This document shows, piece after piece, positions 16,596-18,259 of a stretch of DNA of 64,000 nt (its first letter is position 1; every line of letters starts with the position of its first letter). The notes beneath the pieces are model-generated. The model ran no database searches. It saw only the letters and a program-made list of their open reading frames with translations, and had not been told where the DNA came from. The translations under genes were made by a program, and so were the position numbers. The stretch is taken from the NCBI RefSeq assembly GCF_002073975.1, contig NZ_CP020384.1, positions 1,116,001 to 1,180,000 of the forward strand. The letters are read 5' to 3'. This DNA comes from Rhodovulum sp. MB263 (GTDB lineage: Bacteria > Pseudomonadota > Alphaproteobacteria > Rhodobacterales > Rhodobacteraceae).

Positions 16596-16613
16596 TGTCT
16601 ATCCAAGCTTACA
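16596..16613 (+). promoter_or_regulatory. PpsR/CrtJ-like palindrome 1 (TGT-N12-ACA)
   Basis: TGTCTATCCAAGCTTACA matches the TGT-N12-ACA recognition pattern of the photosynthesis repressor PpsR/CrtJ. It ends 7 bases before a second copy of the pattern. The pair geometry resembles the cooperative double sites known for this regulator, which are about 8 bases apart. Confidence 0.6.
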
Positions 16614-16620
16614 GTGTACC

Positions 16621-16638
16621 TGTCCATCTGAATTGACA
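16621..16638 (+). promoter_or_regulatory. PpsR/CrtJ-like palindrome 2 (TGT-N12-ACA)
   Basis: TGTCCATCTGAATTGACA is the second TGT-N12-ACA match, centred 25 bases from the first. Its last six bases (TTGACA) are shared with the FNR-type box, so the two regulators could not easily bind together. Confidence 0.6.
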
Positions 16639-16646
16639 GAAATCAA
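16633..16646 (+). promoter_or_regulatory. FnrL-type binding site upstream of hemA
   Basis: TTGACAGAAATCAA matches the FNR/FnrL consensus TTGAT-N4-ATCAA at nine of ten positions. FnrL control of hemA is established in Rhodobacter, where anaerobic induction of tetrapyrrole synthesis supports photosynthetic growth. Confidence 0.65.
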
Positions 16647-17035
16647 TGTTCAAACCTCAAAACTGTCGCTAAGCTGACGGACGTATGCTGTGCGCAGACG
16701 CGCCTTGAGGCCGAATCGCGCCATATTGCTCTGGTACCGGTGGATCGCAGAAACCCTGTTTCCGATCGGAACGCCCGGCCCGGAGAAGATGGCGCAAAAG
16801 CAAGGATCGGCTGAAAATTGTGCAGCATCATGCTTCGATACCCGATGTTTTTCGCATATGAGAAACGGACGGGGAAACGGAAACGGCGCTACGCCCTGTC
16901 CCGGCCGGGACAGACGGAACGCCAAAGGGGTCGGTCGGTGACCCCGAAACGCAGAAGGATCCGGCGGGTTCCGCAGGGCGGACGTGACGGACATCTTCGA
17001 GGGCCTTGCGAGGCCGACACAAAAGGAGAGACCCG

Positions 17036-18259
17036 GTGGATTATACCGCTGCTTTGGACGCATCCATCAACCGGCTGCATGAAGAAGGACGCTACCGCAC
17101 CTTCATCGATATCGAACGGCGCAAGGGCGCCTTTCCCGAGGCGGTCTGGAGCCGTCCCGACGGTGAGAACCAGGACATTGTCGTCTGGTGCGGTAACGAC
17201 TATCTGGGCATGGGGCAGCATCCGACGGTGATCGCCGCCATGCAGGATGCGATCTCGGCGACCGGCGCCGGGTCGGGCGGCACCCGCAACATCTCGGGCA
17301 CCACGATCTATCACCGCCGCCTCGAGGCCGAACTGGCCGACCTGCATCAGAAAGAGGCCGCGCTGGTCTTCAACTCGGCCTATATGGCCAATGATGCCAC
17401 GCTCTCGACCCTGCCGGCGCTGTTCAAGGATCTGGTCATCGTCTCGGACGAGCTGAACCATGCCTCGATGATCCAGGGCATCCGCCATGGCCGTTGCGAC
17501 AAGCACATCTTCCGCCACAATGACGTGGCGCATCTGCGCCAGGTGCTGGAAAGCATCGAGAAGGGCCGCCCGATCCTGATCGCCTTCGAATCCATCTACT
17601 CGATGGACGGCGATTTCGGTCCGATCGAGGAGATCTGCGACCTGGCCGACGAATTCGGCGCGCTGACCTATATCGACGAGGTCCATGCGGTCGGCATGTA
17701 CGGCCCCCGCGGTGCCGGTGTCGCCGAGCGCGACAATCTGATGCACCGGATCGACATCATCAACGGCACACTCTCCAAGGCCTATGGCGTCTATGGCGGC
17801 TATGTCGCGGCTTCGGCCAAGATGTGCGATGCTGTCCGCTCCTATGCGCCGGGCTACATCTTCACCACCTCGCTGCCGCCGACCATCGCGGCCGGGGCCT
17901 GTGCCTCGGTGCACCACCTGAAATCCGATGTCACGCTCCGCGAGAGGCATCAGGACCGGGCCCGTGTGCTCAAGGCCCGCTTCAAGGGGCTCGGCATGCC
18001 GGTGATCGACCATGGCAGCCATATCGTGCCGCTCATCGTCGGCGATCCGGTCCACACCAAGCGGATCTCGGACATGCTGCTGGAAGGCTACGGCATCTAC
18101 GTGCAGCCGATCAACTTCCCGACCGTGCCGCGCGGCACCGAGCGGCTGCGCTTCACGCCCTCGCCGGTCCATACGCCCGAGCAGATGGATGCGCTGATCC
18201 GTGCGATGGACGAGCTCTGGTCGCAATGTGCGCTGAATCGCGCCGAACTGACGGCCTAG
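17036..18259 (+). CDS. hemA: 5-aminolevulinate synthase
   Basis: It condenses succinyl-CoA with glycine to 5-aminolevulinate, the first committed step of heme, bacteriochlorophyll and corrinoid synthesis in alphaproteobacteria (Shemin pathway). The 407-residue product keeps the PLP lysine at Lys248 ([13 protein letters not shown]), the glycine-rich [13 protein letters not shown] segment and [10 protein letters not shown]. The start is GTG at 17036 (VDYTAALDA), chosen because it gives the exact family length and follows AAAAGGAGAG at 17021-17030. Control by oxygen and light is suggested by the upstream sites. Confidence 0.97.

Follow-up and report, generated by a model that had tools for sequence, protein, structure and literature searches.

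Paired PpsR/CrtJ-type palindromes fused to an FnrL-type site upstream of hemA in Rhodovulum

Two palindromes of the PpsR/CrtJ type stand in tandem upstream of hemA in Rhodovulum sp. MB263, and the one nearer the gene runs into an FnrL-type site. The arrangement is best explained as a composite redox operator, in which a PpsR pair placed upstream of a class II FnrL promoter of hemA would allow PpsR to exclude FnrL when oxygen is present; the probability of this reading is put at roughly 0.7. The odds given in words to the other explanations discussed below are not mutually exclusive. An earlier note on this DNA had proposed a PpsR/CrtJ operator at the pair. That part of its interpretation stands, its argument from helix face does not, its proposal of control by light is not supported, and the fusion of palindrome 2 to the FnrL-type site had been overlooked. 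Coordinates are collected in Table 1 as positions in the window, i.e., the whole 64,000-nucleotide stretch of DNA that was analysed.

Table 1. Features of the hemA region of Rhodovulum sp. MB263, in window positions
Feature	Position	Strand	Details
PpsR/CrtJ palindrome 1 (distal)	16596..16613	.	TGTCTATCCAAGCTTACA; 18.9 bits; TGTC[CT]A...[GT]ACA kept in 11/16 Rhodovulum leaders
Spacer, 7 bp	16614..16620	.	Length constant, sequence variable; N7 in 11/11 hemA pairs
PpsR/CrtJ palindrome 2 (proximal)	16621..16638	.	TGTCCATCTGAATTGACA; 22.7 bits, top position of the window
FnrL/FNR-type site	16633..16646	.	TTGACAGAAATCAA; matches TTGA-N6-TCAA; such a site in 16/16 Rhodovulum leaders
Predicted -10 element TAAGCT, distal promoter	16670..16675	+	T at constant distance from the FNR site in 16/16 leaders
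Proximal promoter-like element TTCGAT-N17-TATGAG	16834..16862	+	Carries no PpsR or FnrL site; putative function
hemA, 5-aminolevulinate synthase	17036..18259	+	GTG start; from translation; relatives 72-96% identical among those listed

The palindrome pair upstream of hemA

Both palindromes are exact matches to TGT-N12-ACA, as the earlier note had claimed, and their centres lie 25 bp apart. An isolated match of this kind has little meaning, and it is the paired form that is informative. Single TGT-N12-ACA matches number seven in the window against 2.56 expected, with at least seven in 2 of 100 shuffles, and the counting of single palindromes as evidence was rejected, the pattern TGTM-N10-KACA being found 103 times genome-wide and 117 times in the reversed control. 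The paired pattern TGTN12ACA-N4..12-TGTN12ACA occurs at three places in the 4.16-Mb genome and nowhere in the reversed control. One of the three is the place upstream of hemA, and the other two, beside bchC and beside crtD, belong to the photosynthesis gene cluster; the far-side neighbours of these two pairs, an O-methyltransferase gene and a polyprenyl synthase gene, are read by domain and position as crtF and crtE. The hemA pair is not a chance occurrence.

Table 2 of PMC4344238 lists 19 PpsR ChIP-seq motifs from R. sphaeroides, and 13 of them were used to build a PpsR weight matrix. It is symmetric, so that a single strand was scanned, and its own 13 training sites score 13.6-26.2 bits. Within the window, palindromes 2 and 1 take the first and second ranks, and the third-ranked position reaches 12.7 bits. 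For the MB263 genome, in which the ranked sites cover contig 1 up to 2.98 Mb and fetched stretches past that, the scores are 27.9 bits before bchE, 25.1 and 24.7 bits between an aerR-like gene and bchF, 25.0 and 22.6 bits at bchC/crtF, 21.9 bits at crtA/crtI (crtA itself falling slightly below its cut-off), 20.0 bits upstream of a light-harvesting beta gene, and 17.5 and 10.3 bits at crtE/crtD. The matrix is not fully specific, because sites of 16.8-18.1 bits also occur with no recognised photosynthesis gene nearby, at C1:2978038, at C1:1914129 and upstream of a PRPP synthetase gene, the last of which, at 18.1 bits, comes near the score of palindrome 1.

The hemA pair thus consists of palindromes that fit the matrix, at a spacing near 8 bp, in a genome that carries ppsR. 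Its identification as a PpsR/CrtJ operator is upheld, on firmer ground than the earlier note could tell, by the paired high-scoring sites, by their presence in 11 of 16 congeners, and by the ppsR and reaction-centre genes of the genome. The further claim that both palindromes lie near the same helix face fails. With a helical repeat of 10.5 bp per turn, the 25 bp between centres correspond to about 2.4 turns, and the palindromes are therefore not close to the same face.

An overlapping FnrL-type site and two hemA promoters

The last six bases of palindrome 2 (TTGACA) are at the same time the first six of the FNR-type site. When the 16 Rhodovulum leaders are aligned on that site, all share the site itself and a T that could be the first base of a -10 element. 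The constant distance of this T from the site points to an FNR centre near -41.5, the position of class II activators, and to a transcription start near 16681. Counted from that predicted start, palindrome 1 would span about -85 to -68 and palindrome 2 about -60 to -43, which would place both upstream of the core promoter. Some 400 bp separate the sites from the GTG start codon, making this a distal promoter. At position six of the FNR site, all 11 genomes that carry the pair have A, the base that completes the ACA of the palindrome, and all five that lack the pair have C; this base is under dual constraint. The FnrL-type site to which palindrome 2 is joined, at about -41.5, shifts the likely mechanism from blocking of the core promoter to competition with an activator.

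The central TTTTTCG-like block of the proximal promoter-like element is seen in 14 of the 16 Rhodovulum leaders, and control by PpsR and FnrL probably concerns only the distal of the two hemA promoters. The TTGACA at 16633 was also considered as a sigma-70 -35 element and rejected: a poor -10 follows 17 bases on, and a simple scan returned no promoter on the + strand. Matching plasmid records give the hemA product the name 5-aminolevulinate synthase.

A search of the hemA leader for an RNA element gave no credible match in Rfam and a fold z-score of -1.6. The leader contains strong hairpins at 16897-16945 (CTGTCCCGGCCGGGACAG and GGGGTC...GACCCC), and as a whole it folds only slightly better than shuffles. 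At 16759-16772, TTTCCGATCGGAAC contains a perfect 12-base palindrome. The pattern TTTCC-N4-GGAAC is similarly placed in 12 of 16 Rhodovulum leaders, one of which carries it as TTTCCTATAGGAAC, a variant in which the symmetry is preserved despite base changes. The TTTCCGATCGGAAC palindrome is possibly the site of another regulator.

Conservation of the hemA leader

All 16 Rhodovulum genomes are phototrophic. The pair pattern occurs at 45 places in them, vs 5 in the reversed control, and these comprise 11 places upstream of hemA (all N7), 29 of the photosynthesis-cluster type that resemble the MB263 pairs (all N8) and five others. Comparison with the hemA leaders of related phototrophs, which the earlier note had suggested as a check, gave a divided answer: the pair is present before hemA in 11 of the 16 Rhodovulum genomes, and it was found in none beyond the genus among the genera examined. 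The closest named hemA loci, at 95%, are those of Rhodovulum visakhapatnamense and R. kholense. Among the 12 Rhodovulum-group loci (L035-L046), seven have the pair (R. visakhapatnamense, R. kholense, R. euryhalinum, R. marinum, R. steppense, R. tesquicola and R. strictum), and R. adriaticum, R. bhavnagarense, R. robiginosum, R. imhoffii and one metagenome genome do not. A hemA gene tree, in which 7 of 19 inner branches are well supported, requires at least three changes of the trait. A single origin with later losses is tentatively favoured, on the ground that the hemA pairs agree exactly in register and spacing. Another ALA synthase-like gene, 53% identical, is carried by one Rhodovulum genome that lacks the hemA pair (locus L029, G005:C36:265402-266604), where it lies some 19 kb away from the reaction-centre genes of the same contig.

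The wider family was sampled as 198 genomes, one per genus, of which 84 encode a reaction centre. Leaders of hemA were taken from 60 of the 83 other phototrophs, namely those with a listed hemA place (a genome with two such places was sampled once), and removal of two leaders shortened by contig ends left 58; for the non-phototrophs, the 20 of 114 with the best hemA scores were used. None of these 58 phototrophic and 20 non-phototrophic genera has the palindrome pair before hemA, and none of the other 68 hemA loci kept has it in up to 700 bp upstream (less than 410 bp in three). A strict FNR site, TTGA-N6-TCAA, stands before hemA in 31 of the 58 phototroph and 13 of the 20 non-phototroph leaders. 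Any PpsR site of at least 15 bits is present in 11 of 16 Rhodovulum leaders vs 1 of 58 phototrophs and 0 of 20 non-phototrophs. These counts make the FNR-type site a common feature of hemA leaders and the PpsR pair a Rhodovulum trait in this sample. The hemA leader of one other phototrophic genus (L141, genome G126) carries a lone palindrome, TGTCAACCTATCTTGACA, at -197 (23.9 bits) and a separate FNR site at -90.

The same register at bchE

In R. sphaeroides and relatives, the bchE promoter is like that of Rhodovulum hemA in that an FNR site and a PpsR palindrome have six bases in common, in an identical register. For R. sphaeroides bchE, the sites in the literature are TTGACatgcATCAA for FnrL (PMC2908626) and TGTCAACTGAAATGGACACA for PpsR (PMC4344238); written on one strand, they would share six bases in this hemA-like register. 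Activation of R. sphaeroides bchE by FnrL is described as tested by point mutation, a one-base change in the TCAA at -57 from the start codon having lowered FnrL-driven expression by about 90% (PMC4263372); to judge from its position, the mutated TCAA is probably the shared half. The order of the sites differs. It is FNR, PpsR, (PpsR), gene at bchE, and the mirror image, PpsR, PpsR/FNR, -10, gene, at Rhodovulum hemA; the coincidence of the ACA half with the TTGACA half is found at hemA as well, but the order FNR then PpsR toward the gene is not. Some bchE promoters also contain a second palindrome, at a distance of 25 or 26 bp.

The fused register TGT-N9-TTGACA-N4-TCAA is matched 89 times, across 77 of the 394 family genomes searched, and 10 times in the reversed control. 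Phototrophy status is known for 198 of these genomes, and at a matrix score of at least 20 bits the register occurs in 23 of 84 phototrophs vs 0 of 114 non-phototrophs (Fisher p 4e-10), a contrast that partly restates that PpsR sites are a property of phototrophs and to which the identities of the genes add more. By threshold, the figures are 26/84 vs 6/114 at 15 bits, 23 vs 2 at 18 bits and 23 vs 0 at 20 bits. Thirty fused-register loci were fetched. The 17 that score at least 20 bits comprise 13 before bchE, two at bchC/crtF, one at crtA/crtI and one unidentified, and the remaining 13 gave no match to 12 reference proteins. A recurring class, approximately TGTGACnGTTTyTTGACA-N4-TCAA (L232, L240, L252, L259 and others), has low PpsR scores and includes non-phototrophs; it looks like another conserved FNR-type promoter.

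MB263 itself carries the fused register at both hemA and bchE. Its bchE, with its fused PpsR/FNR site (L226 3455-3480; G000 C1:1067454-1067479), lies apart from the two examined stretches of the photosynthesis cluster. In this gene and in the 13 other bchE loci the PpsR palindrome overlaps the gene-facing end of the FNR site, with palindromes on both sides at one locus, and a complete second palindrome follows 25 bp onward in 4 of the 14 (L245, L247, L251 and L260). An unselected sample was drawn from 60 stretches around the reaction-centre genes of 30 of the 84 phototrophs, and from the best 3 of 6 plasmid records. It yielded four bchE genes, one of them from the genomes, all with TTGAT-N4-GTCA. 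Three of the four have a full FNR site, three have an overlapping palindrome of at least 16 bits, and two have both; in the third gene the palindrome is accompanied by an FNR site with one mismatch, and in the fourth an FNR site is accompanied by a degenerate palindrome. The second palindrome lies 25, 26 and 26 bp away in the first three genes, so that N7 is no rule at bchE. A layout in which PpsR and FnrL sites share bases was not found described in the open-access literature searched.

A further proposal, judged slightly less likely than not, is that the fused operator, common at bchE in Rhodobacteraceae, is a portable redox module able to work in either orientation, the mirror form having arisen at hemA within Rhodovulum and having been lost in some lineages with the FnrL promoter retained.

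Regulators encoded in the genome

The presence of ppsR and of photosynthesis genes, which the earlier note had listed among its checks, is confirmed: PpsR is encoded (466 bits to TIGR02040, cut-off 275.4), as are two reaction-centre proteins (pufLM-type genes). The ppsR gene and the reaction-centre genes are far from each other on the contig. Adjoining ppsR is a gene for a B12-binding protein, read by position and domain as AerR/PpaA-like. The genome also encodes a protein of the Crp/FNR family that has the cysteine pattern C-x2-C-x7-C-x2-C close to the N-terminus, and from this pattern we take it to be FnrL. CrtJ is known to have a redox cysteine, and the PpsR of MB263 has Cys 469 within the C-terminal DNA-binding region. 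The genome gave no match for a BLUF-domain protein and so offers no sign of light control of the AppA/BLUF type; the AerR-like B12-binding protein makes light input at hemA possible.

Proposed mechanism and alternatives

The sites, their register and conservation and the regulator genes are observed; that PpsR and FnrL bind and compete here, where transcription starts and which way control runs are inferences. In the simplest model of the composite operator, one of mutual exclusion, oxidised PpsR would occupy both palindromes in oxygen and hide the FnrL site, and FnrL, then lacking its iron-sulphur cluster, would leave the distal hemA promoter silent; the demand for heme in air could be covered by the proximal promoter. 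As oxygen drops, PpsR would leave the pair or be remodelled, an effect probably exerted by the AerR-like B12 protein encoded next to ppsR. FnrL might then occupy the freed site at about -41.5 and recruit RNA polymerase, raising the supply of 5-aminolevulinate (ALA) along with bacteriochlorophyll synthesis.

Comparison with other systems bears on several of these steps. R. capsulatus bchC likewise has two close TGT-N12-ACA palindromes, which are placed at -4 to -21 and -30 to -47, with N8 between them and over the -10 and -35 elements (PMC5362033); those at hemA are spaced by N7 and lie upstream, and repression there would need interference with FnrL or with polymerase. Repression of the photosystem in air is described as slight or nil in R. 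sulfidophilum, a Rhodovulum species (PMC3738892), and strong aerobic repression is therefore not to be assumed. R. sphaeroides hemA, like that of Rhodovulum, has an FnrL site upstream and likely two promoters; unlike it, the R. sphaeroides site, given as TTGATccttATCAA, does not contain TTGACA. Both R. sphaeroides hemA promoters are reportedly FnrL-regulated, to go by the title of Fales et al. (2002).

Against the composite operator stand the weak or absent aerobic repression described for R. sulfidophilum, the upstream position of the sites in contrast to bchC, the incomplete specificity of the matrix, and the 5 of 16 congeners, phototrophs all, and the 58 other phototrophic genera that have no pair. 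Further points against it come from other species: the R. sphaeroides PpsR ChIP-seq table includes hemE and does not include hemA (PMC4344238), R. capsulatus hemA is described as changing little with oxygen (PMC5643017), and FnrL is said to have no direct action on it (PMC4634722).

One alternative holds that the main role of PpsR at hemA, together with AerR, is to co-activate the gene at low oxygen from its upstream sites, and not to repress it by excluding FnrL. The predicted position of the sites, -85 to -43, is one usual for activators, CrtJ is termed an aerobic repressor or anaerobic activator (PMC9144470) and is described as remaining on photosystem promoters in photosynthetic conditions (PMC5362033), and loss of LAerR is reported to reduce expression of heme biosynthesis genes in R. 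capsulatus (PMC6199135). The same register recurs at bchE, however, where the PpsR palindrome lies toward the gene from the FNR site, and joint occupancy of palindrome 2 by PpsR and FnrL is unlikely because six bases are shared; co-activation as the main role is rated unlikely.

Ordinary repression of hemA by PpsR, through blocking of polymerase and with no special interplay with FnrL, is given the same low standing. The hem genes of R. capsulatus are reportedly CrtJ-regulated, in the words of the title of Smart et al. (2004). PpsR/CrtJ is, moreover, mostly described as a repressor (PMC5362033). Against simple blocking, the palindromes lie upstream of the predicted -10 and not over it, and the register with the FNR site is the same in all 11 genomes with the pair. 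That the FnrL site alone is functional and the palindromes are chance or decayed matches is very improbable: the strict FNR site is indeed widespread before hemA in phototrophs and non-phototrophs, and five of the 16 Rhodovulum genomes manage with no palindromes, but 11 genomes keep both palindromes at a constant distance, around a spacer of variable sequence, and the reversed control yields five pairs across 16 whole genomes.

Significance for tetrapyrrole synthesis in Rhodovulum

At Rhodovulum hemA, an oxygen-responsive repressor and an oxygen-responsive activator appear to share DNA bases, an arrangement whose other occurrences are mainly at a gene for a later step of bacteriochlorophyll synthesis. 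Sharing of bases by two regulators might help to explain confusing results with single mutants, such as the R. sphaeroides fnrL mutant, in which hemA and bchE transcripts are described as not having fallen. The slight or absent aerobic repression described for R. sulfidophilum makes the genus well suited to asking what a weakly repressing PpsR does. The FnrL promoter is common to species that have the PpsR part and species that lack it, and the gain or loss of one regulatory input is thus directly testable.

Heme, vitamin B12 and bacteriochlorophyll all draw on the synthesis of ALA, and direct control of hemA by the photosynthesis repressor would therefore bear on how photosensitising pigments are avoided in air. 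If the fused operator is indeed a portable module, the first committed tetrapyrrole step and the anaerobic bacteriochlorophyll step would answer to the same switch, in which repressor and activator exclude each other. The Rhodovulum lineage appears to wire hemA into the photosynthesis regulon by means of PpsR sites set on a genus-wide FnrL promoter.
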